59,451 nt of DNA from Mycetocola manganoxydans (lineage in GTDB: Bacteria > Actinomycetota > Actinomycetes > Actinomycetales > Microbacteriaceae), in the NCBI RefSeq assembly GCF_003667545.1, contig NZ_RCUV01000021.1, positions 1 through 59,451 on the forward strand, in the 5' to 3' direction. The notes beneath the pieces are model-generated. The model did not search any database. It was given only the letters and a program-made list of their open reading frames with translations, and was not told the origin of the DNA. The translations under genes were made by a program, and so were the position numbers. How positions within the stretch are numbered: position 1 is the stretch's first letter; each line of letters begins with the position of its first letter. Of the stretch, positions 44,412 to 58,307 are shown in pieces.

Positions 44412-45041
44412 GTGCCAGAACCCACGTGGACCGATATCGCCACAGCAATCAGCTCGGCCGCGACGCCAGTCGTTGTTGCGATCTTCGGCTGGATCCTGAC
44501 GCGACGGCAGTCGCGTAGTGAGTTATTACTCAACGCTCGGATCGATTACTACAGGCAACTCGGCCCAGAGCTGAATAAGTTGATGAGCTACATGATGTTC
44601 ATCGGAACGTGGCGCGATATCGCGCCACCCGAGGTAGTCGCCCTCAAACGGCGCTTGGACGCATCTTTCTATGTGGCCGCGCCGCTATACAGCCGACCCG
44701 TCACGGCGGCATACGAAAGCTACATGAAGTTGTGCTTCGTGCCTTTCGGCGATTGGGGTTCCGACGCCCTGATCAGAAGTAGTCCGTATCGGCGCCGCGT
44801 CAGTTGGAAGGCGTCGGCCGCATGGGACCCTTCCTGGGGCAGATTATTCGAGTTGCAGGAAGAGGAGCCGATCGAGCGGCAAGCTCTCGAGGAACTAAGG
44901 TCCGCGTATGACTCGCTGATCTCCGCGCTGGTCAAAGACCTGAACATAAATCGGGCCCGCAGTGAATACACGAGCGCTCGCGCGGTCACCAACGCCGGAG
45001 GACAGCTCCGCACTGTCGACGGTGCGCCCGCCCGCGATTAG
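44412..45041 (+). CDS. Hypothetical protein with one N-terminal membrane helix
   Basis: The protein of about 209 residues begins with a membrane helix (ATAISSAATPVVVAIFGWIL) followed by a basic stop (TRRQSRSELLLNARIDYYRQ) and a mostly helical cytosolic domain (LGPELNKLMSYMMFIGTWRD, ALKRRLDASFYVAAPLYSRP, VTAAYESYMKLCFVPFGDW) ending with a helix before a polar tail. I do not recognise the family. GTG 44412 is chosen because upstream the frame runs through the pseudogene region; there is no good ribosome site. It lies in the cassette between the two LLM gene copies, next to the HEPN/CBS-like gene, and its codon use is less GC-biased than the core genes. Confidence 0.6.
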   Translation: MPEPTWTDIATAISSAATPVVVAIFGWILTRRQSRSELLLNARIDYYRQLGPELNKLMSYMMFIGTWRDIAPPEVVALKRRLDASFYVAAPLYSRPVTAAYESYMKLCFVPFGDWGSDALIRSSPYRRRVSWKASAAWDPSWGRLFELQEEEPIERQALEELRSAYDSLISALVKDLNINRARSEYTSARAVTNAGGQLRTVDGAPARD

Positions 45042-45258
45042 CGATTCAGCTGCTTGAGAAATTTAGCGGCTTCACGGCTCATTCGAGTACGGACGAGTAC
45101 TTCCGCCGATATCTGATTGATCTACGCACCACAGCCGATAGTGCTGCGAACGCCAGCAGCGGCGGTTGAGTAAGCGACGACTGTCTTGCGGAGGATTGGA
45201 CGTGCGTAGTGCCCAGCATTACTGACCACGACGCTGTGATCCTAAAACACGAGGCCCG

Positions 45259-45270
45259 GGAACGCGTTCC
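45259..45270. promoter_or_regulatory. 12-bp perfect palindrome upstream of the HEPN/CBS-like gene
   Basis: GGAACGCGTTCC lies 48 bases before the start of the next gene, in the 276-base gap after the membrane-protein gene. Its size and place suit a repressor site, but nothing else supports that. No other feature is visible in the gap. Confidence 0.35.
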
Positions 45271-45317
45271 CACGAGCCGAGCACATAGATTGATACAGGA
45301 CTGAGAAAGAGGAAACG

Positions 45318-46067
45318 ATGGACGATGTGGGGTCCAATGCGCGACGTTTTTTGGACGCATTTCACAAGACCGAAATAATGCTCCAGAGTCGTTTCGATCG
45401 CCGAGATGGGAAACGGCCTCCTTTCAATCGCCTGATTGATGAGTCAGATGAACTTGTGGGCGAACAGAAGAGCCGCCTCAAGGAACTTGCCCTGCTGCGG
45501 AATGCGATCGTGCACACTCCGTATAGTCCGCGGGATGAACCATATGCGGACCCCCGGAACTCGGTGGTCGAGTGGATAGAAAAGCAGGCGGACGTGATCG
45601 AGAATCCCCCGCTCGTTATTGGAGTTCTCAAGCTCGATCCTCCGCGAGTGCTGCAGCACTCGGACGATGTCAGTCGGTTCCTGGCGGAAGTCGCCTATCC
45701 ATTTGATTTTTCCCAGGCCCCGGTGAGAGACGCCAACGGTCAAATCTTTCTGGTTACGACTAATGCTGTTGCTCGGTGGGTCGCATCCGCGTATTCCCCT
45801 CATGCTGGCGGGGTTCTTCCCCTGGCAAGCATCGCCGAGGTCGCCCGGTTCTCTGAAGAAGGGGACCGCCTTCATATTGCCTCCGAACGCTTACGAGTTA
45901 TAGATGCTCTTCGCATATTCGGAGGTGCGCTGGGTGTGCCACCTGCGGCCATTCTTATGCGATCAGAAAGCCCGGGTGATCCGGACCCTCTCGGACTCTG
46001 CGTTCGCTCAGATCTCCCCGAGCTGTTGCGAGCTCTCGGCGTGGGGCCGCACGCCAGCCCGCTGTGA
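45318..46067 (+). CDS. HEPN-like domain fused to CBS-like domains
   Basis: The 249-residue protein has a helical N-terminal domain ending in LKELALLRNAIVHTPYSPRD; RNAIVH at residues 61-66 fits the R-x4-H motif of HEPN ribonucleases and RNA-binding proteins. From about 100 follow two CBS-like halves: VLQHSDDVSRFLAEVAYPFD, SQAPVRDANGQIFLVTTNAV, ARWVAS, then LHIASERLRVIDALRIFGGA and DPLGLCVRSDLPELLRALGV. CBS pairs bind adenosyl or other nucleotides, so a ligand-controlled RNase or RNA-binding protein is plausible. That combined reading is inference. ATG 45318 follows GAAAGAGGAAACG. It is inside the cassette bracketed by LLM gene 3' ends. Confidence 0.65.
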   Translation: MDDVGSNARRFLDAFHKTEIMLQSRFDRRDGKRPPFNRLIDESDELVGEQKSRLKELALLRNAIVHTPYSPRDEPYADPRNSVVEWIEKQADVIENPPLVIGVLKLDPPRVLQHSDDVSRFLAEVAYPFDFSQAPVRDANGQIFLVTTNAVARWVASAYSPHAGGVLPLASIAEVARFSEEGDRLHIASERLRVIDALRIFGGALGVPPAAILMRSESPGDPDPLGLCVRSDLPELLRALGVGPHASPL

Positions 46068-46094
46068 GCAGAGCTAAAGCTCGATGAGAGGGCC

Positions 46095-47126
46095 CTACGC
46101 GAGCATTTCCTGCACCATCGGAATCACCTGCGTGCCATACAGCTCGATGCTCGTCATCAGCTGGTCGTGCGGCATCGGCCCGTTCGAGTACTTGAGGTCG
46201 AACCGGTCCAGCCCGAGCGTCTGCGCCGTCGCCGCGATCTTCCGCGCGACCGTCTCCGGCGATCCCGCATAGAGCGAGCCGTGCTCGATCTCGTTCACGT
46301 ACTCCGTCTCGGTCACCGGCGGCCAGCCGCGCTCGGCGCCGATCCGGTTCCGGTTCGCCCGGAAGTGCGGCCACAGCTGCTCGCGCGCCTCCGCGTCGGT
46401 GGCAGCGATGTGTCCGGGGGAGTGCGCGCCGAGCGGCATCCGCGGAAGTCCGAGCTGCTCCGACGCCCGCCCATACAGCTCGACGTACGGCAGGAACCGG
46501 CCCGGGTCGCCACCGATGATCGCCAGCATCATCGGGATGCCGGTGCGCACCGACCGCACGACGGACTCCGGTGATCCGCCGACACCGATCCACGAGGTGA
46601 GTCGGCCGGACTCGGTCTTCGGGAAGACGTCCTGGTTCGTCAGCGGGGCACGGTGGCTGCCGGACCAGGTGATCGGCTTCTCCTTGAGCAACTGCACGAA
46701 CAGGTCGAGCTTCTCGTTGAACAGGGTCTCGTAGTCGGCGAGGTCGAAGCCGAACAGCGGGAACGACTCGGTGAACGAGCCGCGACCGAGGATGACCTCC
46801 GCGCGGCCGCTGCTGGCGGCATCCAGTGTGGAGAAGCGTTCGAAGACGCGGATCGGGTCGTCGCTCGAGAGCACGGTGACGGCGGAACCGAGGCGGATGC
46901 GCTCGGTCTGGCCGGCAATCGCAGCGAGCACCATGTCGGGGGCGGAGATCGCGTAGTCGTCGCGGTGGTGTTCGCCGACGCCGATGAAGTCGACGCCGAC
47001 CGAGTCGGCGAGCACCCCCTGGGCGATGACGTTGCGGATCACCTGGGCGTCGCTCTGGCGTTCGCCGTTGTTGTCGACGGTGACGTCACCGAAGGTGTCG
47101 AGTCCGAGTTCGAGGTGCTGTGCCAT
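46095..47126 (-). CDS. LLM class flavin-dependent oxidoreductase
   Basis: The 343-residue TIM-barrel protein is luciferase-like: LELGLDTFGDVTVDNNGERQ, SVGVDFIGVGEHHRDDYAIS (the GEHH motif is typical), RIRLGSAVTVLSSDDPIRVF, EVILGRGSFTESFPLFGFDL and SWIGVGGSPESVVRSVRTGI. It probably uses FMN or F420; substrate unknown. Its last 30 codons are the source of a degraded duplicate at 44103-44190. Composition and octamer content mark it as core DNA within an otherwise accessory stretch. The 227-base gap upstream (47127-47353) shows nothing I can support. Confidence 0.9.
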   Translation of the reverse strand: MAQHLELGLDTFGDVTVDNNGERQSDAQVIRNVIAQGVLADSVGVDFIGVGEHHRDDYAISAPDMVLAAIAGQTERIRLGSAVTVLSSDDPIRVFERFSTLDAASSGRAEVILGRGSFTESFPLFGFDLADYETLFNEKLDLFVQLLKEKPITWSGSHRAPLTNQDVFPKTESGRLTSWIGVGGSPESVVRSVRTGIPMMLAIIGGDPGRFLPYVELYGRASEQLGLPRMPLGAHSPGHIAATDAEAREQLWPHFRANRNRIGAERGWPPVTETEYVNEIEHGSLYAGSPETVARKIAATAQTLGLDRFDLKYSNGPMPHDQLMTSIELYGTQVIPMVQEMLA

Positions 47127-47353
47127 TGCCGTATCCGTTCAGTCTAAAGTCGATGCGTACGCATCATTGTCGACAACGGTCGAGGTTAGCCCCGTATTCC
47201 TACTGTCACCTGGGCTCTCGGTCGTGCCCCTCATCGGGGCTGAAGCGCTCACCCGCAAACTGTCCGTCCGAATTTCTGGCAGAGCCGTACCTCACACTTT
47301 ACGAATGCACCTGACCCGAAAAGACACGCGCTCGTGTGCAGAAACTTTCGAAG

Positions 47354-47899
47354 TCACAGCCCTGCCGCGTCAGCGAGCCAATCTCGAACTTGAGCGGGGT
47401 CGTTCCCGAATGGTTCGAGCCACGACTGAACGACCCCAGGACCAGCGTCGAACCAGTAGGTTTCTTGGGAGTCGATCCCCGTGTGTTGACCAAGTTGACC
47501 TATCACGTGAATATCCAGGGCCTCCTTCGGCAACAACCACATGTGTGCGTCCACAGGCGACAGCCCAAGGCAGAGACAGTAGTCGTAATCTCGATCGCGG
47601 ATCTGTTGGAATCTGTAGATGCCGCTGCTCCATAAGGTTGACATCTTCACTTGAACTCGTAGCTCGTCGATATCTAGGTAATGCTGTCCGTCTACTCTGA
47701 TCGACCGCACGTCGAAACCCGAATTTGCCGCCCACTCGGCTACCAGACGCCGTCCGATGCTCCCTTTCGTGGCGGACGGAACAGACAATATCCACTCGAA
47801 CGGGCTTCCCCGCCAGTCACGTGACTCTGGGAAGTCGGCGGCGATTTCATTTGACGCGTGTGCAAGGTCCACAAAACCGTCTGTTGGAGTAGGTGCCAC
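47354..47899 (-). CDS. Putative PD-(D/E/Q)XK-type nuclease-like protein
   Basis: Read from GTG 47899 (GGAG eight bases upstream), the protein has about 181 residues. ATKGSIGRRLVAEWAANSGF, HYLDIDELRVQVKMSTLWSS and YDYCLCLGLSPVDAHMWLLP follow the alpha-beta order of restriction-type nucleases: a helix, an Asp (D78), a strand with Q-x-K (Q83, K85) and a further strand. Similar proteins in other bacteria are described only as endonuclease-like or hypothetical. Starts at ATG 47947 and GTG 47980 are also possible. It stands alone on the minus strand beside the GIY-YIG/MazG pair. Nuclease activity is inferred from the motif alone. Confidence 0.6.
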   Translation of the reverse strand: MAPTPTDGFVDLAHASNEIAADFPESRDWRGSPFEWILSVPSATKGSIGRRLVAEWAANSGFDVRSIRVDGQHYLDIDELRVQVKMSTLWSSGIYRFQQIRDRDYDYCLCLGLSPVDAHMWLLPKEALDIHVIGQLGQHTGIDSQETYWFDAGPGVVQSWLEPFGNDPAQVRDWLADAAGL

Positions 47900-48085
47900 C
47901 GCTACGTCTCCGATCCTTGAGCAAGTCGATTGGCGAAAGCTAAGCATTAATTCGGAGGCTTGTATACAGGCGTTGATCACGGATTTTTAACCGTTGAGTG
48001 CGAGTCAGGCGTGGACCTCGTGTTCAGGGTAGTTCCTGTGAAGTGCACGATAGTGCCGGCTCGACGACCGGCGACTTGCTCCCGC

Positions 48086-49876
48086 TCAGTGCCGGTCCAC
48101 CGTCGTGATGAAAGTTCTTAGGTACTCGCGAAGGGCGGGGTCGCACACGTAGACATACGTACCGCGGATGCCACGGGTCAGGAGAACTGCGTAAATGTTG
48201 CGGACAAAACGCAGCAGGTCGTCGTCGCTGTAGACCTTGCCGAGAACCGCATTGTTCTCCTTGCCCTTCTTGTCGAAGTACGACGCACGATCAACGAACA
48301 GCCGTCGAGTAATGGGGTCGTAGCGAAGGTCCGGCCCGATGATCACGCCCGCGTAGTTGAGGTCGTAGCCCTGGACCGTGTGGATCGACCCGACCTCATT
48401 CAACGATTTCGGGGATGCGATCCAATCGGTCTGTGTGCTGTTCCAGCGAAACTTCTCACCGTCGACGTTGATGTCGAAAGCCGCCTTGTCGTTCTTGGAA
48501 GCCCAGGGCCACGCGAATCCAGCCACGAGACGCGAGAGACCTGCTTCCTTCTCCTTGAGCAAGATCTCGTCCCGCATGTCGGCGACGCTTTCAAACATCC
48601 GAAAGTCGTACTCCGCGAACAGTTCCGGCTCGGGCTGGGTGGTGTCGTCGAAGTGGCTCGCCGAGCCAAGAATGCGTCGGATGTACGCGACGTAGTCCGC
48701 TTCACCCGCCTGCACCCGCATCTGAGTAATCAGGGGATAGTGGCGGTGGCGAGCTTTGGCGTTGGTCACAAGGTCGAGGAGTAGTTGGAACGGGAGATCC
48801 GCGGGTCGCACGCTCTGCTCCGCATCAAGCAAATAGATCTGATGCTTGCTTCTCGCACGGATCCAGTCCAGCTGAGTCTTGCTCGTGTCATCAACATCGA
48901 AGAGCTTTTTCGTGATGTCGGCGAAGTTCTTGTTCTGCACACCCGACGGTTGGTTCGCTCGCTGATTGAGCCGGTGGGCTTCGTCGACGATGAGAAGGTC
49001 GAACTCCTCGTCGGCATTGCCCACGTCGAAGGCAGTCATGACCATCGCCGGATCCAAACCGGGCGTCTTGCGGAACACTTTCTTGATCGACTCCCGCAGC
49101 GACTGTTGCGGGATAACGAGACCGATGCGAAGGTCGGTGAGAAGTGCGCGGTGCTCGGGGACGAACAACTCCGAGAACATCGTGTCGCTGTCGAAATCCT
49201 CAGCCTCAACAGTATTCGCGATATCGACGAGCAGCTTCAACATATAGAGGGCGACCACGGTTTTGCCGGTGCCGGGGTCACCCTGAATCACGAGGGTGCT
49301 GCTGGAACCAGCGCCCAGATCCGTGAGCAGACCGTTGAGAATGTCTTCCACTGCGGCAGCCTGGTCCTGCGTGAGCGCTTTGAATGGGGACAGCTTGAAC
49401 AGGTCGCTGTTCTCGATCTCCGGGATGCTCCGGGTGAAGACCCCGTCGCGTCGTAGCTGTTCAAAGACGTCGCGAAACGACTCGCGATAGAGATCACGGT
49501 CGTAGTAATCGCCCTCGGTGATTCCGTCATTCCGGTTGAGCACGCGATAGGCCCCGTCGCCGGCGAGCAGCCGGATGAGGAAGGACTCGAGATCGAGGCA
49601 GGCCGATTTGTTGAATCGTTCGTCGACAATGACCCGGATGGTCTTCAGATGCGCCTTGTCTGGGGAGTCGAAGTGCTGCCGCATCCGACCGGCGGCATTT
49701 CGCGACTCACCAACATAGACGTCGTTCAGCAACCGATTCCGTGGAGCGCGGTTGTCGGTCGTCGCGTCGTCGAGCACATAGACAACGGGCCAGTTCGTGT
49801 TGCGAGTGTGACTCGGAGCCCAACGAATAACAGCCTCGGGTGTGAAGTCGAGGCGTTCGATTTTAGAGGGCGTCAT
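48086..49876 (-). CDS. GIY-YIG nuclease fused to a DUF2075-type P-loop helicase-like domain
   Basis: The 596-residue protein begins with a GIY-YIG domain (PVVYVLDD at 30-37, VYVGESRNAAGRMRQHF at 53-69, a Glu near LDLESFL). From about 190 it carries a DUF2075-type superfamily 1-like ATPase: TLVIQGDPGTGKTVVALYML, FDLLIVDEAHRLNQ, QIYLLDAEQSVRP and VGSIHTVQGYDLNYAGVIIG, which are Walker A, Walker B and later helicase motifs. GIY-YIG/DUF2075 proteins recur in defence-gene neighbourhoods. Its ATG at 49876 lies inside the last codons of the MazG gene (14-base overlap), so the two proteins are made together. Nucleolytic action on foreign DNA is an inference. Confidence 0.85.
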   Translation of the reverse strand: MTPSKIERLDFTPEAVIRWAPSHTRNTNWPVVYVLDDATTDNRAPRNRLLNDVYVGESRNAAGRMRQHFDSPDKAHLKTIRVIVDERFNKSACLDLESFLIRLLAGDGAYRVLNRNDGITEGDYYDRDLYRESFRDVFEQLRRDGVFTRSIPEIENSDLFKLSPFKALTQDQAAAVEDILNGLLTDLGAGSSSTLVIQGDPGTGKTVVALYMLKLLVDIANTVEAEDFDSDTMFSELFVPEHRALLTDLRIGLVIPQQSLRESIKKVFRKTPGLDPAMVMTAFDVGNADEEFDLLIVDEAHRLNQRANQPSGVQNKNFADITKKLFDVDDTSKTQLDWIRARSKHQIYLLDAEQSVRPADLPFQLLLDLVTNAKARHRHYPLITQMRVQAGEADYVAYIRRILGSASHFDDTTQPEPELFAEYDFRMFESVADMRDEILLKEKEAGLSRLVAGFAWPWASKNDKAAFDINVDGEKFRWNSTQTDWIASPKSLNEVGSIHTVQGYDLNYAGVIIGPDLRYDPITRRLFVDRASYFDKKGKENNAVLGKVYSDDDLLRFVRNIYAVLLTRGIRGTYVYVCDPALREYLRTFITTVDRH

Positions 49877-50183
49877 ATTTCGCGCTTCGACCGCGGGATT
49901 TCTCGATCGGGTACTTTTCACGGCTCTTCGCCAGTTTCTCAAGGACGATCTGGTCCGGGTCGGCACCGATACGGTCGGCGAGCAGTATGCAATACGTAAG
50001 GACGTCGGCTAATTCGTCGCGGACACGGGCCGAATCCGCGTCATCGTTCCATTGGAAGCACTCGAGCAGCTCGCCGGATTCGATGACGATGCTCTTCGCG
50101 AGGTTCTCGGGACTGTGAAATTGAGCCCAGTCCCGCTCGGCCATGAAGGAGGCGATCTCATCGCGGACTGACTTGTCGACCAT
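49863..50183 (-). CDS. MazG-type nucleotide pyrophosphohydrolase
   Basis: The 106-residue protein is an all-helical MazG-like domain with NLAKSIVIESGELLECFQWN, where the Glu-rich helix supplies metal ligands, and VRDELADVLTYCILLADRIG with the second E-x2-D site. It would hydrolyse (d)NTPs to monophosphates and pyrophosphate. It overlaps the GIY-YIG/DUF2075 gene by 14 bases and is the first gene of that pair. Such partners are reported in phage-defence settings, where changing nucleotide pools is one proposed role; the sequence does not prove it. Confidence 0.87.
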   Translation of the reverse strand: MVDKSVRDEIASFMAERDWAQFHSPENLAKSIVIESGELLECFQWNDDADSARVRDELADVLTYCILLADRIGADPDQIVLEKLAKSREKYPIEKSRGRSAKYDAL

Positions 50184-50329
50184 CCCGTCAACCTAGCAGG
50201 GAGGCCCCTCGAGCCGAGGTCAATGCCCGGCGGAGACTACATGGCACACGTTTTGGGTGTCTCTCGCGGCGCGGGCATCTCGGCCGATCTCAATAGACTA
50301 CGGACCGAGTACCAATCATGGAGGTTGTT

Positions 50330-51583
50330 GTGGCCAAGCGTCGAGGATTCTTTGCGGAAATGCAGCATCAGGCACGACTCGCAGAGAAGCGCGAAGCCGC
50401 CGTTGCTCGAGAATACAATGCGGCCGTTCGACGCACCGAGCAGGCGCATAAAGCCGCACAAAGAGCAACCGCGGCGGCTCAACGTGCGTCTGAAGCGGAC
50501 CGAAAGCGACTCGAGAAGGAAGCCGCCGCTGCGCACGTCGAGGCGATGCAGGCCGAAGTAGACCAATTGAACGCCGAACTTTCTGCGAAGTACGAGCGCA
50601 TCGATTCGCTGCTGTCGGCGACCCTGCAAGTTGATGACTACGTCGACCTCGAATCATTGCGAGAAGTGGTCGATCATCCCCCGTTCGATCGCCCGGACCT
50701 CATGCGCCCACTGCCCGCTCCGGCCCCCATTCCGGACCCACCGCTCCCCGTTAAGCAGCCAGTGCAGGCTCCGACAGGATTATTCGGTAGAAAGCAGAAG
50801 CTCGCTGAGGCGGAAGCTGCAGCCGAGGCGCAATATGCGGCCGATTACTGGGCTTGGCACGCGAGTGTGCAAGAACTGCCGGCTCGTCGCCAAGCTCAGG
50901 ACACGGCCTATGCCGCAGCTGAGCAGGGGCGCTTAGCGGAGCTCGCGAAAGAGAGGGCGCGCTACGACCAAGAGTGTGTTGCCCGGGAAGAAGCAGTCCT
51001 CGAGCAGAACGGGGAGCTTGACCAGTTAATTAACGGCCTTGGTTACGGGACCGTGGGCGCTGTGCAAGATTATGTCGCTATAGTTCTCGCGAACTCGATC
51101 TACCCGGAGGAAGTCGAGGTGCATCATTCAGCCGAATTCGAGCCGTCGACTGCTGAGCTCAGCATGAGGGTGTTGATCCCAGGCCCGGACAGTATTCCTG
51201 CAGTGAAGGGATATCGGTATGTCAGAGCATCCGACGAGATCGTCGAAACACCTCTGTCGCAGAAGGAAGCCAAAGAGAGGTATGCCGAGCTCGTTCACAA
51301 CGTCGCTTTGAGGAGTTTCCACGAGGTGTTCGAAGCGGATCGACGTGGTCTCATCCGAAGCATCGCTTTGGAACTTGGCACCGAAACCATCAATCCAGCA
51401 ACAGGTAGAGAAACATACGTACCGCTGACTGCCGCTGCAGTTTCCCGGGAGGTCTTCTCCGAACTCGATCTCTCGGCTGTAGTGCCAGCGGCTACTCTCG
51501 CCCATCTTGGTGCGGTTGTCTCGAAGAACCCGCTGGCCTTGGTGCCAGTGAGCGGTTCGGGTGTTCGGAGCGCACAAGGGTGA
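50330..51583 (+). CDS. Coiled-coil protein coupled to a DUF4041/GIY-YIG gene
   Basis: The 417-residue protein has a long basic/Ala-rich coiled coil at the N-terminus (AEKREAAVAREYNAAVRRTE, RKRLEKEAAAAHVEAMQAEV), a Pro-rich hinge (PLPAPAPIPDPPLPVKQPVQ), a second coiled coil and a folded C-terminal domain (LGYGTVGAVQDYVAIVLANS, TAELSMRVLIPGPDSIPAVK, GYRYVRASDEIVETPLSQKE, RGLIRSIALELGTETINPAT). Similar actinobacterial proteins are sometimes labelled restriction-system proteins. GTG 50330 follows GGAGG by five bases, which decides the start over the ATG at 50318. It ends over the start of the next gene (GTGA). No nuclease motif is evident in it. Confidence 0.75.
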   Translation: MAKRRGFFAEMQHQARLAEKREAAVAREYNAAVRRTEQAHKAAQRATAAAQRASEADRKRLEKEAAAAHVEAMQAEVDQLNAELSAKYERIDSLLSATLQVDDYVDLESLREVVDHPPFDRPDLMRPLPAPAPIPDPPLPVKQPVQAPTGLFGRKQKLAEAEAAAEAQYAADYWAWHASVQELPARRQAQDTAYAAAEQGRLAELAKERARYDQECVAREEAVLEQNGELDQLINGLGYGTVGAVQDYVAIVLANSIYPEEVEVHHSAEFEPSTAELSMRVLIPGPDSIPAVKGYRYVRASDEIVETPLSQKEAKERYAELVHNVALRSFHEVFEADRRGLIRSIALELGTETINPATGRETYVPLTAAAVSREVFSELDLSAVVPAATLAHLGAVVSKNPLALVPVSGSGVRSAQG

Positions 51584-52941
51584 GTGAACCGATATTCAAC
51601 CCGCCGCCCGGGTGGCCCCAACCGCCTCCCGGCTGGCAGCCGCCGGCAGGCTGGAGCCCGGACCCTTCTTGGCCGGACCCACCTCCCGGATGGGAACTGT
51701 GGGTGCCATCGGTCACACCCAAGGAAGCAGCCGAAAATTCGTTCGTCACCTCTGTCTCGGACGACAGTCCGATTGGCTCCTCGGACGATCATGGTGCCGC
51801 AGACGGCGATATTGACAGAACGCGCGGCGGCGATGTGTCTCGACGAATGGCGTTGCTAGAGGCAGAGAACGCCACCTTGCGCGCCCAGCTGGCCTCGACC
51901 GCGCCGGGCACTTACGTTGAACTGAATGACGCTATCGTCCTTCAGGACGTCGGAATTTACCGCTACCACCATCCGCTTGAATCAGCTGCTGCCTACAAAG
52001 ACCGCTTGAACCACATTGAGTCGCAAACGGCCGAGCTGGTCAAATCCGGTCGCGCGATAGTCAAATCCGAATTGTTTACGTTCAATAACTCTCTTGCGCA
52101 GGGCCGACGCATGACGGAGGACCTCGCGAAGCTCATGTTGCGTGCCTATAACGCGGAAGCCGACAACAGCATTCGATCTCTGAAGGCCGGAAACGTACTC
52201 ACGGCCAGGCGCCGTATGGACGCCAGCCGAGCTGCTATCGCGAGACTCGGCCGATTGATGGAGATGCATATCAGTGATGAGTTCCACGCGTTGCGTTTAG
52301 AAGAAATCGAGCTTACTTCCGACTGGCTAGTCAAGAAGCAGGAAGAACGAGAGGCGCAACGTGAGGAACGGGCGCGGTTGAAAGAAGAGAATCGTGTTGC
52401 AAAGGAGCTTGCTGAGGAGCGAGCGAATCTCGATAAGGAGCGGTCGCATCTTCTGAATGCCCTCAATGCACTTGAGCAGCAAGGGCAATCTGACCCAGAA
52501 CTGGTCGTTCGGCTTGCCCTCATCGATGACGCAATCGCGCAGAATGACTTCCGCGCCGCGAATATTCGTGCGGGCTATGTCTACGTGATCTCAAATGAAG
52601 GTGCGTTCGGCAAGAACGTCGTGAAGATTGGGTTGACTCGAAGACTTGATCCGGGCGATCGTATCGCCGAGTTGAGCGGGGCGTCCGTGCCGTTCCGCTT
52701 CGACACCCACACCCTGTACTTCTCGGAAGATGCCGTCACCTTGGAGAACGAACTACACAGGCACTTCGCGGATCGGGCACTCAATCGCGCGAATGCTCGG
52801 AAAGAGTTCTTCTTTGCTACCCCCGTAGAGGTCAAAGCGGTCCTTCTCGAAAAGGTAGGCAACCTGTTGGAATTCACAGAGTCAGCAGACGCGACGGAAT
52901 ATCGGCAGTCAGTCGCTCTGTGGCCGGCCGGCCGACCTTGA
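51580..52941 (+). CDS. DUF4041-type protein with C-terminal T5orf172 GIY-YIG domain
   Basis: The 453-residue protein has an N-terminal Pro/Trp-rich stretch (NPPPGWPQPPPGWQPPAGWS) like DUF2510-type tails, a DUF4041 region (YVELNDAIVLQDVGIYRYHH, AAYKDRLNHIESQTAELVKS, LMLRAYNAEADNSIRSLKAG), a coiled coil rich in E/R/K (EEREAQREERARLKEENRVA) and a C-terminal GIY-YIG domain of the T5orf172/Mug113 kind (GYVYVISNEGAFGKNVVKIG, LENELHRHFADRALNRANAR). The GIY-YIG core suggests DNA cleavage. GTG 51580 overlaps the upstream stop codon, so this is a coupled pair that recurs in actinobacteria. Function unproven; defence is a reasonable guess. Confidence 0.83.
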   Translation: MSEPIFNPPPGWPQPPPGWQPPAGWSPDPSWPDPPPGWELWVPSVTPKEAAENSFVTSVSDDSPIGSSDDHGAADGDIDRTRGGDVSRRMALLEAENATLRAQLASTAPGTYVELNDAIVLQDVGIYRYHHPLESAAAYKDRLNHIESQTAELVKSGRAIVKSELFTFNNSLAQGRRMTEDLAKLMLRAYNAEADNSIRSLKAGNVLTARRRMDASRAAIARLGRLMEMHISDEFHALRLEEIELTSDWLVKKQEEREAQREERARLKEENRVAKELAEERANLDKERSHLLNALNALEQQGQSDPELVVRLALIDDAIAQNDFRAANIRAGYVYVISNEGAFGKNVVKIGLTRRLDPGDRIAELSGASVPFRFDTHTLYFSEDAVTLENELHRHFADRALNRANARKEFFFATPVEVKAVLLEKVGNLLEFTESADATEYRQSVALWPAGRP

Positions 52942-52954
52942 TCACAACGACCTA

Positions 52955-54049
52955 ATGCGCCTGATTAGAGCAACAATCCCCGCCGTCGTTGCCGCCCTGC
53001 TCTGGTGGGCCAGCGGCGGCCTCGAACTGCTCGGCCGGCAGACCCTCTCCGGTCCGGTGCGGCACATCCTCGCCATCGTCGCTCCCGAGACGATTCCGGT
53101 GCAGGAACTCACCGCTCCCGCACCGTGGGCGTTCATCATGATCGCTCTCTCGATGCTCGCCATCTTCGCCGCCTACGCCGCCCTCGCCGCACTGGTCGGG
53201 CGTCAGCAGCCAGGCAACACCGCGACCGCGTTTGCCGCCTACTGGATGTGCGCCGTGGCATCCGGGTTCCTGGTTCCGGCGATTCCCGTCGTCATCGAAC
53301 TCGTCAACGCAGTCGTACAGCAGCAGGCCCCGTTCGGTCTCGTCGGCGAGCGGGTGGCCGGGGCAGCGCAGTGGGGGCTGCTGATCGGCTGGATTCCCGC
53401 GCTGGTTGCTGTCGCCCTCGATAGTGCCGGTCGGCCGGAACGGCGCGTCTTCACCCGTCGGATGGTCGCCATCCCCGCGATCGTCCTGTTTCTGCTGGCG
53501 GCCGTCGGGCTGACCGTCGCCTCGCCGCTGGCGCTTGCTGCGGTGCAGGCGCAGATTCCGACCGAACCGGTCGCGGAACCCGCCCCGGTGGGCACACCGG
53601 TGCCACAGGTCGCGCCCGGCGAGTGGCAGATTGATCCGCGGTGGTGCACGAGCGGACAGCTCGAGATGACAGCGGGGGAGCCGGACGCCGCCCTCGGCAG
53701 CCGCGCCCTCGTCATTCGGGCCACGAACGTCAGCGATGCGCCGTGCATCGTGGAGAGCTACCCGGATGTGGCGTTCGCCGACGAGTACAGCAACGCCCTC
53801 GACGTGAGCGTCGACCACGGCGGCGCGATGCTCAGCGACGATCCCGGTGTGACGCGGATCGAGGTGCAGCCCGGGGCATCCGTGGTGTCGACGCTCGCCT
53901 GGAGTGCGATGCCGACTCAGGGGCTGGATGCCGCCGGCTGGCTCCACGTCGCATCCCACCACGGTGCGAAACGGCAGATGGTGCACATCGATACGGATAT
54001 CACCGGGGGGACAGTGACGGTAACTGCGTGGGCGTTGCTCATCGGCTAG
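52955..54049 (+). CDS. Membrane protein with C-terminal DUF4232-like domain
   Basis: The 364-residue protein has about five to six membrane helices in its first half (AFIMIALSMLAIFAAYAALA, GLLIGWIPALVAVALDSAGR, IPAIVLFLLAAVGLTVASPL) and, from about residue 225, an exported beta-sandwich of the DUF4232 type with WCTSGQLEMTAGEPDAALGS, LVIRATNVSDAPCIVESYPD and VQPGASVVSTLAWSAM. DUF4232 domains are common in actinobacterial surface proteins without known role. It starts 13 bases after the GIY-YIG gene, yet its GC content and CGGATGCC-type octamers point to core DNA, so the defence-like block may end and resume around it. Confidence 0.82.
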   Translation: MRLIRATIPAVVAALLWWASGGLELLGRQTLSGPVRHILAIVAPETIPVQELTAPAPWAFIMIALSMLAIFAAYAALAALVGRQQPGNTATAFAAYWMCAVASGFLVPAIPVVIELVNAVVQQQAPFGLVGERVAGAAQWGLLIGWIPALVAVALDSAGRPERRVFTRRMVAIPAIVLFLLAAVGLTVASPLALAAVQAQIPTEPVAEPAPVGTPVPQVAPGEWQIDPRWCTSGQLEMTAGEPDAALGSRALVIRATNVSDAPCIVESYPDVAFADEYSNALDVSVDHGGAMLSDDPGVTRIEVQPGASVVSTLAWSAMPTQGLDAAGWLHVASHHGAKRQMVHIDTDITGGTVTVTAWALLIG

Positions 54050-54408
54050 GCGAGGTACTCGAAGATAGCGGCGGCTCCATCCGGCTTCGGAAAGGCACGG
54101 TTGCGCTCTGGTGACCTACTGCTGCGACGTGGAGCGAGCGACTCTTCATATGTTCGTCTGGCAACCGCAGCGATGGGCAGCCATCTCGACCAGAGTGTTG
54201 TGCCACTGAGCACAGGCTTTCCTCCTGAAGCGCTAATCCCCGAGCGGCTTAGCTCAGTCGCACCGGCTCAGCGCCAGGACGGGATGGAGGAAGCCCCGAA
54301 AGCGGGGTCGCACGTGACCGTGCTCCGAGGATAGCCTGACTCGATCTAACGTTCGCTGAGCGGGGAGTCAAGATTGTTTTTGCGTGAGCTAGTGCGCACC
54401 GATAACCC
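54050..54408. other. Gene-free gap with a short hairpin
   Basis: This 359-base stretch holds no convincing gene; a 77-codon open frame (54101-54334) lacks a ribosome site and biased codon use. CCCCG (54294-54298) and CGGGG (54303-54307) around AAAG form a small hairpin. AT-rich bases near 54370-54405 (TTGTTT, GATAAC) could carry the promoter of the kinase gene, but the spacing is not standard. Confidence 0.5.
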
Positions 54409-55281
54409 ATGGCTGCTTTCGTGACCCCAGACGAAATCGTCTCGGAGGCGATCGCTGCAACAGGAGTATCTAACGCCCAATGGCTCACCCAGGGAGGGCA
54501 AAAGTGGGTGCTGACTGCTGATCTCGCAGGCAATCCCGTAGTTCTAAAGATCGTCCCGGTGCCTCCCGGACCAGTTGCGCAGATCGCAGTTAAACGAGCG
54601 CATCGCGAGGTGGAACTGCTCGCCGCCGTCGAATCGCCTCATCTGGTTTCGGTCTTGTCGGAGGCGATCGAGATTGGTGACGTCCCGTCAGCCGTGGTCT
54701 GGCTCGAAGAGAGGCTGGACGGTGCCGACTTGAGTCTGGAGTTGGGGGTGCAGTGGGACGATATGCAGGTCGTAGCGATGTTGCGCGATCTCGCTCGCGG
54801 ACTAATCGGCTGCCATGAACTCGCAGTCGTTCACCGAGACCTTTCCCCGGGTAATGTGCGCCACACCTCTGAAGGACGATTCGTTGTGATGGATCCCGGA
54901 TTTGCGCGACATTTGGAACGAAGCGCGCTTACCGGGATACATCAACCTGGCACGCCCGGCTTCCGAACCCCGGAGCATGTGCCGGGTGGATCTCCCACCC
55001 CCGCTAGCGACATCTTCGGCGTGGGGATCTTGGCCTTTTTTGCTCGCAGTGGACAATTCCCAGTTGACCCCTCGGGTGAGGATCACGAGTACGACCGTCG
55101 TCTGCGCACAGGCCAGGCCGCACCTATTAGCAGTTTGGTGAGCTCCATCGACGGAGAACTTGCCGTGATCATTGATCGCTGTCTGCAGCGTCAGCCAGCG
55201 CGGCGGTATTTGGATGGCGGCGAGCTCTTCGCTGCACTTGAGGCGACAGCAATAGGGAGTGCCGAATGGCGGGAATTCTGA
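54409..55281 (+). CDS. Eukaryotic-type Ser/Thr protein kinase (single domain)
   Basis: The 290-residue protein is a compact kinase: NPVVLKIVPVPPG with the ATP-binding Lys (K47), VVHRDLSPGNVRHT with the catalytic His-Arg-Asp (residues 142-144), VVMDPGFARH where DPG replaces the DFG metal motif (about 162), TPGFRTPEHVPGGSPTPASD and DIFGVGILAFFARSGQFP. The Gly-rich loop (TQGGQKWVLTADL) is atypical. There is no transmembrane segment or PASTA repeat, so it is a cytosolic kinase with an integral partner rather than a wall sensor. It overlaps the following gene by 16 bases. The ATG at 54409 has no strong ribosome site. Confidence 0.83.
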   Translation: MAAFVTPDEIVSEAIAATGVSNAQWLTQGGQKWVLTADLAGNPVVLKIVPVPPGPVAQIAVKRAHREVELLAAVESPHLVSVLSEAIEIGDVPSAVVWLEERLDGADLSLELGVQWDDMQVVAMLRDLARGLIGCHELAVVHRDLSPGNVRHTSEGRFVVMDPGFARHLERSALTGIHQPGTPGFRTPEHVPGGSPTPASDIFGVGILAFFARSGQFPVDPSGEDHEYDRRLRTGQAAPISSLVSSIDGELAVIIDRCLQRQPARRYLDGGELFAALEATAIGSAEWREF

Positions 55282-56435
55282 TTCATGATGGCCGCAGAAC
55301 CGGGCATCTGGGCTGGTGCGAGAAGGCTATCGCGGATGGCGTTGCGGATGGGGTCTTTATCTCTGCGTTCTCCACACCTCGGGTCGGCACGCCTAGAAAT
55401 CCGAGTGCCGAGCGACTCGCAGATACCATTCGAGCGACGGGCGGAGAGGTGGTTTTTGACGTGGAGACCCATGCCCGAGTGCTCCCGACTTCAAACCGAG
55501 TGGATTTTTATGACACCTGGGAGTTGTGGGGCCCCGCCGGGGTCGGACTCGACACGCCGACGAGACGTTTGCAGCACATTGAGCGGGTGTTCCGGCGTCA
55601 GGAGAGTATAGGAGCGCCGCATCTGGCTCCCACCCTCGCCCTAGATTCTCCGGATTCAGACGCCGCGACCCATGCACTCGCTGCAGCAGAGCTGGCGAGC
55701 GGGATGTCCGAAAATTCATGGCAGTCGCTGGTCGCGACTAAGACATTCCTGAGGAGCGGGTACCGTCTTGATGAGTACGTTGGTCAACTGGCGGCCCTCG
55801 GATCGCCGACCTGGGTGATCACGGTTGCAAATGAGGTGGTTCTGGGCCAAGCACCCGATGTAGGCGACACGGAAGCATTCGCAGGGCTGCTCCGTTCCAT
55901 TCATTCCTTGTCAGAGAGATCTCGAGTGATCGTCGCGAAGTCAGACTTTGTCGGACTTCTTGGAGTAGCAGCTGGAGCGGATACCGTTGGCGGTGGGTGG
56001 GACCGTTCAATGAGAACTTACGATCCAAATGCTTTCCACGTCGCGTCCGACGATGGGATCCGTATTCCGGCATCATACGTGACTCAGAGTGGCCTGTTAG
56101 CGGTGCTTCGCCGCGATACAGCCGAGGCGATCGAGCGCTTAGACTCCGCTTTAGCGTCGGCCATTCGGGGCGGGGCGATGCCGCCGAGTGATCGTGCGGA
56201 GCGAGAGCACCATCTGCGAACTATCCGGGAAGTCGTACTTGCGATGAATCAATCTGAGTCAAGAGGCGACCGAGTCGAAGTGCTTCGCAACCTCTACGCG
56301 ACAGCCGATAACTATTTCGTAGACCTCTTAGCGCGGGTTCCTGCATTCGTAAAGAACAGCGACAAGGTTGCCTGGCACGATCAGCAACAGGCCATCCTCC
56401 GTGAGTATGCGTCGGCTGAGGGCCTGTGGGTCTAG
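55266..56435 (+). CDS. Unclassified alpha/beta (possibly TIM-barrel) protein coupled to the kinase
   Basis: The 389-residue protein shows an alternation of hydrophobic strands and helices suited to a barrel: GILIHDGRRTG, VFISAFSTPRVG, EVVFDVETHARVLPTSNRVD, FYDTWELWGPAGVGLDTPTR, HLAPTLALDSPDSDAATHAL, SLVATKTFLRSGYRLDEYVG, TWVITVANEVVLG, RVIVAKSDFVGLLGV and ADTVGGGWDRSMRTYD, followed by a helical C-terminus (VLRNLYATADNYFVDLLARV). The fold order recalls tRNA-guanine-transglycosylase-like barrels, but I see none of their zinc or catalytic motifs, so I give no function. ATG 55266 (GGGAG upstream) lies inside the kinase gene, so the two are co-translated. Its stop overlaps the convergent wHTH gene by four bases. 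Confidence 0.65.
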   Translation: MAGILIHDGRRTGHLGWCEKAIADGVADGVFISAFSTPRVGTPRNPSAERLADTIRATGGEVVFDVETHARVLPTSNRVDFYDTWELWGPAGVGLDTPTRRLQHIERVFRRQESIGAPHLAPTLALDSPDSDAATHALAAAELASGMSENSWQSLVATKTFLRSGYRLDEYVGQLAALGSPTWVITVANEVVLGQAPDVGDTEAFAGLLRSIHSLSERSRVIVAKSDFVGLLGVAAGADTVGGGWDRSMRTYDPNAFHVASDDGIRIPASYVTQSGLLAVLRRDTAEAIERLDSALASAIRGGAMPPSDRAEREHHLRTIREVVLAMNQSESRGDRVEVLRNLYATADNYFVDLLARVPAFVKNSDKVAWHDQQQAILREYASAEGLWV

Positions 56436-57190
56436 GTCAAGCTATGCCGCAGGGAACCAACCGAATGGATGAAACGCTCCGATGCCAAGAGCCGTGAGCC
56501 CGCATGGAGAGCGTTCGCCCGCCGCCCAATTGTCGGCTGAACGATCCATTTATCGCCAATCGCAAGTCCGAGTCGAAGTGATTTGGCATGGCGGACCACG
56601 TCGGTGAGGTTCTTCGGGGGGTGAAGGAGGACGACGCCTGATGCGTCAGCCCAGGTGGAATACCGAGCGGCTTGAGAGATCGCGCGATTCCAGTCCGATA
56701 CCTTGGCTTCGAATGCATACATTCGTCCAACTGGAACGATTGCTGGGTGGCGACGATATTTGCCGGCCACCTCCTTGACTGCGCCCGACGTTTCGAGTTC
56801 GCGCAGATATCCAGCCACCTGACGGCGCGACATTCCGATCCGCCATTCCACCTGAGCGGCCGTAGTGCCTCGTCCAATAGGGACGGCGGCGGCCACGGTT
56901 GCAAGCGCTAGCCGATCAACAAGTGCAATGCCGCTCTCTATCCGAGACTCAATCCCTGCGCTTGCCCGAGTCACAGCCACTAAGTCTGCGATCCCGTTTG
57001 GGCCCGCGAACTCGGGTGTCACAAATACTCCGGCGGTAGCGCCAGGGAGGCGACCTGCGAGCTGACGCAGGGGCCGGTCCAGCTCTCTCTCGAGCAACGG
57101 CTCGAATCTACGTCCTCCCCGAACAATCAGCGCTTCGGTCTCGCATATGTTGGGTGAAGCGCTAGGTGTTGGCGATGGTGTGGATGGCAC
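56432..57190 (-). CDS. Winged-helix protein embedded in a PD-(D/E)XK-like nuclease fold
   Basis: Read from GTG 57190 (AAAGGGG five bases upstream) the protein has about 252 residues. FVTPEFAGPNGIADLVAVTR (Asp near 69) and MYAFEAKVSDWNRAISQAAR with YSTWADASGVVLLHPPKNL (E161-A-K163) fit the D...ExK pattern of PD-(D/E)XK enzymes, and between them sits a winged helix (GRGTTAAQVEWRIGMSRRQV, AGYLRELETSGAVKEVAGKY). Relatives in actinobacteria are described only as DNA-binding or hypothetical. It converges on the kinase/barrel pair with stops overlapping by four bases. Starts at ATG 57205 or 57235 are possible. DNA binding is likely; cutting is inference. Confidence 0.65.
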   Translation of the reverse strand: MPSTPSPTPSASPNICETEALIVRGGRRFEPLLERELDRPLRQLAGRLPGATAGVFVTPEFAGPNGIADLVAVTRASAGIESRIESGIALVDRLALATVAAAVPIGRGTTAAQVEWRIGMSRRQVAGYLRELETSGAVKEVAGKYRRHPAIVPVGRMYAFEAKVSDWNRAISQAARYSTWADASGVVLLHPPKNLTDVVRHAKSLRLGLAIGDKWIVQPTIGRRANALHAGSRLLASERFIHSVGSLRHSLT

Positions 57191-57383
57191 ATGTCCCCTT
57201 TCCATAACGACGATACTCTTTTCGCGATCACGCAACGAGTCCCCGCGCTGCTGGGGATAGCTGCATCACATCTTCCCTCTGTGGGCAGGCCATGACGGTA
57301 ACTCCGGAGTGAGACCTCAGTCATGGAGGACTCATAAACTGCCTCGGCGCGAAGGGGTCACTAAACCCGGCAGAATATGAGTC

Positions 57384-58307
57384 ATGACCACCCCTCTCTC
57401 CGGAACGCAGTTCGAGCTCACCAGCGGCGAATACACCGCCACCATCGCCAGCATCGGCGCCTCACTGCGGTCACTGCAGCACAACGGCCGCGACCTCGTC
57501 GTTCCCTACGACGCCGACGAGGTGCGCCCCGCCTACCGCGGCGCCACCCTCGCACCGTGGCCCAACCGCGTGGTCGACGGCAAATACAGCTTCGAGGGAA
57601 CCGACTTCGAGCTCGCGCTCACCGAACCAAAGCGCGGCCACGCCCTGCACGGACTCGTCGTCTGGCACGACTTCATCGCCCTCGACGAAGCCGAAGACCG
57701 CGTCATGCTCGCCACCACCGTCGAGGCGCAGGAGGGCTACCCGTTCCGCATCCAGGTGCGCGTCGAGTTCGTCCTCGACGCCGACGGTCTCCACACCACC
57801 GTCGCCGCCCGCAACACCGGCACCGCGCCCGCCCCGTTCGGCACCGGCCCGCACCCGTACCTCGTCGCCGGCGAGGGAACAGTCGACGACTGGACCCTCC
57901 TCCTCCCCGCCGAACAGGTGCTCACCGTCACCGAAGACCGCCTCATCCCGATCGAATTGGCGGATGTCTCCACCGAGTCAGGCGGAACCTTCGACTTCCG
58001 AGAGCCCCGCGTCATCGGCGACACTTTCATCGACCACGCGTTCACCGGACTGGTGCGCAACGAGAACCGGACCGCCGAGGTGCAAGTCACCGCGGCATCC
58101 GGAACCGGAGTACGTATGCGCTGGGACACCTCGTGCAAGTGGGTGCAGGTGCACACCGCCGACCAGGAGGCGCCGAAGCCCAGTCGCATCGGCCTCGCCG
58201 TCGAACCGATGACCTGCCCGCCGGACGCGTTCAACTCCGGTGAGGACCTGCTCGTGCTCCAGCCGGGTGGCGTCACGTTTGCTTCGTGGAGTATCGCCGC
58301 GATCTAA
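57384..58307 (+). CDS. Aldose 1-epimerase family protein
   Basis: The 307-residue protein has the galactose-mutarotase fold: LRSLQHNGRDLVVPYDADEV, YRGATLAPWPNRVVDGKYSF with the conserved Asn-Arg, RGHALHGLVVWHDFIALDEA with the catalytic His region, PAPFGTGPHPYLVAG with the second His and LAVEPMTCPPDAFNSGEDLL with the catalytic Glu. It would interconvert alpha and beta anomers of a hexose. Length and motifs are complete. It starts at ATG 57384 and precedes the APC permease by 78 bases in the same direction, though the two need not share a pathway. Confidence 0.9.
   Translation: MTTPLSGTQFELTSGEYTATIASIGASLRSLQHNGRDLVVPYDADEVRPAYRGATLAPWPNRVVDGKYSFEGTDFELALTEPKRGHALHGLVVWHDFIALDEAEDRVMLATTVEAQEGYPFRIQVRVEFVLDADGLHTTVAARNTGTAPAPFGTGPHPYLVAGEGTVDDWTLLLPAEQVLTVTEDRLIPIELADVSTESGGTFDFREPRVIGDTFIDHAFTGLVRNENRTAEVQVTAASGTGVRMRWDTSCKWVQVHTADQEAPKPSRIGLAVEPMTCPPDAFNSGEDLLVLQPGGVTFASWSIAAI

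Follow-up and report, generated by a model that had tools for sequence, protein, structure and literature searches.

In the Mycetocola manganoxydans contig NZ_RCUV01000021.1 (GCF_003667545.1), the whole 59,451-nt stretch of which is referred to here as the window, we found a compact unit of three genes, encoding a Hanks-type Ser/Thr protein kinase, a middle protein with a predicted triose-phosphate isomerase (TIM) barrel and a convergent putative nuclease of the PD-(D/E)XK type. It is close to certain that these genes form a conserved mobile trio, which was found in 14 distinct loci, window included, with 10 loci belonging to subtype I and four to a very diverged subtype II. From this linkage and the genomic setting we infer that the trio is likely a defence-type module, and it looks like an undescribed one in bacteria. 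With moderate confidence, we favour the reading that the three genes make up a mobile module directed against invaders and sufficient in itself, with the nuclease gated by the kinase via a base-handling barrel protein.

In the window, the kinase gene (54409..55281, + strand, ATG start, 290 aa) overlaps the middle gene (55266..56435, + strand, ATG start, 389 aa) by 16 bases (55266..55281), and the middle gene overlaps the nuclease gene (56432..57190, − strand, GTG start at 57190) tail to tail by 4 bases (56432..56435). These coordinates and overlaps, reported in an earlier note on this DNA, agree with the open reading frame list of the window. For the convergent gene, alternative starts lie at 57205 (ATG) and 57235 (TTG, giving the longest frame); an AAAGGGG stretch was read by eye just upstream of the GTG at 57190 on the gene's own strand, and the nuclease residues are numbered from this GTG. 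No tRNA was found in the window and no Rfam match across positions 45000-58000, while promoter- and terminator-like sites did not exceed the counts from shuffled sequence. The tight packing is unremarkable if taken alone, but the layout is retained at every locus: the order of kinase, middle gene and convergent nuclease, as well as their orientation, is the same in 14/14, and in 12 of them the 3' ends of the nuclease and middle genes overlap, by 4 to 77 bases, whereas 2 and 70 bases separate the genes in the other two. The earlier note had staked its proposal on homologues of the three genes staying adjacent in other genomes, and all three were together in each of the distinct loci.

The first trio outside the window, of identical layout, was found on a Dietzia plasmid as the single tblastn match of the middle protein in 72,556 plasmid records. 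Added subtype I carriers were Leifsonia virtsii, Mycobacterium europaeum, Knoellia remsis, an Acidimicrobiia metagenome-assembled genome, one viral contig and two further genomes, and a search with the nuclease found a second viral contig with a subtype I trio. Thus nine subtype I loci (window included) were found via the middle protein and the tenth via the nuclease, and all hold all three genes. The four subtype II loci comprise two that were recognized by distant matches to the nuclease, together with one plasmid each of Kineococcus radiotolerans and Arthrobacter sp. FB24. Redundant loci were dropped before counting: L001, L009 and L014 are the window, L002 is L007, and L012 lies on the same contig as L008; L010, L011, L015 and L016 are loci L046/L047, L017 and L018 (the middle frame of the latter being cut by the locus end) are loci L044/L045, and L057 is L045; L056/L059 agree with the Kineococcus plasmid L048 in record length and in their matches.

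Comparison of 19 kb from each of G744 and G666, which belong to different families, yielded one 2.9-kb match of 90.4% identity that comprises the trio and little else. The ratios of nonsynonymous to synonymous substitution rates (dN/dS) for this pair were 0.13 for the kinase, 0.11 for the middle gene and 0.11 for the nuclease; dN/dS was informative for this pair only, two more distant pairs being saturated, with dS infinite in five of six comparisons and 2.7 in the sixth. The shared stretch together with the low dN/dS therefore indicates that the three genes are transferred and maintained together.

A Hanks-type kinase is marked by a VAIK-type lysine, an alpha-C glutamate, an HRD motif, a catalytic asparagine and a DxG motif. 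The corresponding residues of the window kinase are K47, E67, H142-R143-D144, N149 and D162-P163-G164, and in the alignment K47, E67, HRD, N149, D162 and G164 are unchanged in all 14 trio kinases. Judged by these residues, all the marks are present and the kinase is intact, so that it should be active. The earlier note had remarked on DPG in place of DFG, which holds for subtype I (10/10), whereas subtype II has DLG (4/4). The window kinase matched Pfam Pkinase (E 1.9e-19) and, in PADLOC, had PD-T4-6 as its best family (1.4e-28) and also matched MAD6 (2e-21), with an NCBIfam MAD6 score of 60.5 of 460 bits, far under the cut-off. In PADLOC, PD-T4-6 was also the best family for the Kineococcus kinase (3.2e-37), and the kinase of the Arthrobacter locus matched MAD6 (1.2e-49). 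By these profile matches, the trio kinase is placed close to PD-T4-6/MAD6. A second kinase (L008:5911-7215; PHROG serine-threonine kinase, 5.7e-31) lies about 2 kb past the trio on viral contig L008.

For the convergent protein, the earlier note had claimed an ExK pattern joined to a winged helix, and both were recovered. In the alignment of the nuclease proteins, E60, D69, E161, K163 and Q173 are unchanged in 14/14, K163 being the ExK lysine under the same numbering as before. The PD-(D/E)XK family is marked by an acidic residue ahead of a D/E-x-K motif, often then followed by a glutamine, and D69, E161-x-K163 and Q173 fit this signature at the level of sequence. The winged helix is placed between the aspartate and the ExK motif, and this region matches solved helix-turn-helix proteins, best EutK (5e-4) and then Lrp/AsnC and MarR types. 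The protein is most naturally read as a putative PD-(D/E)XK nuclease into which a winged helix is inserted. It had no Pfam or NCBIfam match at cut-off and no PADLOC match at E ≤0.01; weak matches of the winged-helix region to Pfam TrmB (0.03) and, in PHROGs, to a Ren-like exclusion protein (0.008) and a regulator (0.014) were not used. Profile comparison of the subtype I with the subtype II nucleases gave a probability of 98.5% (E 3.3e-15).

The middle protein is predicted to form a TIM barrel over about residues 1-250, followed by a helical C-terminus. The earlier note had recognized no family for it, and none of the libraries searched gave a convincing one: the window protein had no Pfam or NCBIfam match reaching cut-off, no PADLOC match at E ≤0.01 and nothing better than 0.2 in PHROGs. 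Searching PDB sequences with the family of the middle protein returned nothing relevant, a Foldseek comparison with viral models gave no match at E ≤0.001, and no family of a well-known metabolic enzyme, the outcome that the earlier note held would speak against it, emerged from the sequence searches. DUF6285 (0.05) was under cut-off for the window protein and was not used. Structure prediction reached a predicted local distance difference test (pLDDT) score of 40 from the single sequence, which is poor, and of 58 from a 7-row alignment, which is still weak, with residues 223-279 mostly below 50. The best, but tied, structural match of the protein was tRNA-guanine transglycosylase (TGT), and the protein is probably a TIM barrel, for which we propose a TGT-like fold.

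Profile comparison (hhalign) of the middle protein with five TGTs gave probabilities of 0.1% for subtype I and 0.05% for subtype II, against 0.1-0.2% for luciferase-barrel and kinase controls; because these values do not rise above the controls, kinship with TGT is unproven. Among the middle proteins scanned, none matched Pfam TGT or any TGT, DpdA or CBASS profile. Near the TGT C-terminus, the motif CxCxxC…H supplies zinc ligands; it occurs in 4/4 subtype II middle proteins, with the histidine at +17 to +21 vs +26 in TGT, and is absent from the 9/9 subtype I proteins scanned. The aspartate of the TGT FDC motif is the nucleophile. This motif is present in all five TGTs compared, and the position aligned with it by eye is glycine in 9/9 subtype I proteins, serine in three of the four subtype II proteins and glycine in the fourth. 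The middle proteins of the two subtypes did not match each other significantly (probability 0.3 and 0.6 per cent); we equate them on the grounds of synteny and of the nuclease profile match.

These features also bear on a different reading, in which the trio is a signalling or metabolic unit, with the kinase regulating a TIM-barrel enzyme and the winged-helix protein acting as a transcription factor whose PD-(D/E)XK fold serves binding only. The many transcription regulators matched by the winged-helix region are in line with it, as are D8, D65 and D227, which are unchanged among subtype I middle proteins and sit at predicted strand ends. We nevertheless consider it very unlikely: the invariance of D69, E161, K163 and Q173 in all 14 nucleases across very diverged subtypes suggests catalysis, the distribution is rare and patchy, and no recurring neighbour was noticed across the loci, by inspection and not by a systematic test.

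The anti-invader reading draws further on where the trio is carried. It was found on plasmids of Dietzia (mobilizable), Arthrobacter (conjugative) and Kineococcus, on viral contig L008 together with a phage head gene, and on viral contig L013 together with single-strand-binding and terminase genes. The Mycobacterium locus adjoins phage head, scaffold and protease genes, the G666 locus adjoins a TrwC relaxase and a prim-pol, and the Knoellia locus adjoins a type III restriction-modification pair (read by eye). In the window, a defence pair of a known type stands upstream of the trio (50318-52941, + strand), consisting of two genes overlapping by 4 bases and matching PADLOC mREase_IV (7e-35) and PD-Lambda-1 (5e-95), with the PD-Lambda-1-type protein containing DUF4041 and a T5orf172/MUG113 domain.

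This pair and the trio lie in a variable chromosomal locus (window 46095-57384) between a luciferase-like monooxygenase gene and an aldose-epimerase-like gene. The two flanks are retained in the genus; they are about 10 kb apart in the window and 33 to 57 kb apart in four congeners; both are full on one contig in four of the five congeners, the fifth having contig-end fragments only. From those four, 13.9-15.2 kb ending at the epimerase was taken, and a scan of eight proteins, drawn from three of these congeners, found one GmrSD-like restriction protein, one PIN protein, two methylases, one SLFN helicase and one DpdB-like protein; the other two had no match. The locus is possibly a hotspot for defence cargo, and both the PADLOC matches of the window neighbours and part of the congeners' variable locus support the defence-rich setting asserted in the earlier note. 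The GC content of the trio, 0.59-0.61 vs 0.65-0.68 downstream, is also in line with the anti-invader reading.

The presence of the trio on plasmids and viral contigs, the convergent orientation of its nuclease gene relative to the other two and its compact, self-contained form would also suit a plasmid- or phage-maintenance system resembling toxin-antitoxin units, in which the nuclease is a toxin silenced by the kinase and the barrel protein, and a cell that loses the module dies. Three components, each the size of an enzyme, are a heavy load for such a unit, however, nine of the 14 loci are off plasmid or viral records, and the profiles closest to the kinase are those of defence kinases, so that we regard maintenance as an unlikely function; it is compatible with an additional defence role. 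We likewise give only a small chance to the trio being a weapon between mobile elements (superinfection or inter-plasmid exclusion) rather than a part of host immunity. In favour of such a weapon, two viral contigs (L008 and L013) carry the trio, locus L005 has phage head genes next to it, and one conjugative and one mobilizable plasmid also carry it; against it, the trio is also found in the chromosomal variable locus of the window next to defence-type genes, and its middle and nuclease proteins went unmatched in a search of 50,697 named phage records. It shares the mechanism of the favoured anti-invader reading and differs only in who benefits.

Several observations weigh against the anti-invader reading itself. 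Subtype I is rare, occurring in 2/396 phylum genomes and 3/394 class genomes, with the window's genome counted in both; the middle and nuclease proteins were unmatched among the named phage records; the PD-T4-6 matches reflect kinship of the kinase as judged by profile, and kinases play many roles; the profile comparison of the middle protein with TGT stayed at control level; and reading by eye showed no clear defence-type gene next to the trio in locus L046. In addition, the 15 kb next to the epimerase in congener G005 reads by eye as metabolic genes, which indicates that the variable locus does not hold defence cargo alone.

Overall, the distribution of the trio is rare and patchy. Subtype I was found in one of 149 relatives, namely the window's own genome; the subtype I genome samples overlap, and each contains this genome. 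Subtype II was found in 0/99 relatives by a single query, and its profile gave two true matches and one chance match in 376 order genomes. The chance match, in G782, was rejected, its frame reading by eye as ornithine carbamoyltransferase, with no kinase or nuclease match in its 14 kb. The nuclease profile matched 178 of the 394 class genomes at E 0.001, and only matches of E <1e-10 were counted; five were of this kind, all in trio loci, and the remainder among the matches listed were mostly short, winged-helix stretches. As six candidates were scored per genome in this search, lone nucleases may be missed. The pattern-based viral scans are incomplete, since those with the middle protein missed L013, which the nuclease scan found; with subtype II, such a scan gave nothing.

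Among known systems, PD-T4-6 is a stand-alone single-gene Ser/Thr kinase that acts against phages. It is the best PADLOC family for the window and Kineococcus kinases, but the trio kinase stands beside the middle gene and the nuclease in 14/14 loci, all found via middle or nuclease queries. The resemblance to MAD6 recalls the methylation-associated defence system (MADS), from which the trio differs in having no MADS methylase, ATPase or other partner and a kinase far under the NCBIfam MAD6 cut-off. Kinase domains, restriction-endonuclease domains and winged helices cooperate in PglW of BREX type 2 and in DndF variants (PMC12839542, PMC10853773). Those are large fusion proteins that carry the domains together and have BREX or Dnd partners, and no such partner is present in the trio. 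Cap10 of type IV CBASS is a TGT-family enzyme remodelled to bind protein (PMC11996544), and TGT-family proteins occur in BRC and Dpd systems (PMC12839542). The trio resembles Dpd, type IV CBASS and BRC in having a TIM barrel of possible TGT fold adjoining defence-type genes, and differs in lacking a QueC-, DpdB/DpdC- or CD-NTase-like gene. Of the Dpd set (DpdA with DpdB/DpdC), no PADLOC match at E ≤0.01 was found for the middle and nuclease proteins scanned, and of the type IV CBASS set (CD-NTase with Cap9/Cap10), none was found among the 10 window proteins scanned. Precedents therefore exist separately, and the combination of kinase, barrel and nuclease seen in the trio was not met in the parts of the literature covered. 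Nor was a description of the trio found among the titles and abstract openings returned by a limited literature search, which extended to few preprints and no subscription journals.

For the anti-invader module, we infer each step of the following mechanism. The kinase would serve as a sensor or switch that phosphorylates one or both partners upon infection. The middle protein, a TIM barrel whose fold is probably TGT-like, would handle or recognize a nucleobase and license or aim the nuclease, and the winged-helix PD-(D/E)XK protein would cut DNA, either the invader's or the host's. Convergent, tail-overlapping transcription may keep nuclease levels down as long as the switch is off. A more specific version, which we consider quite improbable, takes the barrel as a TGT-fold protein without the usual nucleophile, acting as a base-flipping reader or, like Cap10, as a nucleobase-protein binder; it would detect modified bases of invader DNA, of the deazaguanine type or others, and hand the site to the nuclease, with phosphorylation as the trigger. 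If true, this would be a new way to sense phages hiding behind modified guanines. Confirmation of the anti-invader module would add a compact immune module to actinobacteria, on chromosomes, plasmids and viral contigs, and give a first setting to the middle protein, a family unnamed in the searched libraries. With two diverged subtypes sharing one layout, the co-dependence of kinase, barrel and nuclease is directly testable.

The remaining features of the window lie upstream of the trio. Between the defence pair and the trio is a gene (52955-54049, + strand) whose product looks hydrophobic by eye over its N-terminal half and ends in a DUF4232 domain; the GC content of this gene, 0.70, is above that of its neighbours. 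An SLFN group-3 helicase gene (48086-49966, − strand) has a weak GIY-YIG match at its N-terminus, and congener G001 (L079) holds a relative of this helicase within the same variable locus. In congener G002, the DpdB-like protein (L080:5552-7291; PADLOC, 6e-11) lies near a DNA methylase.

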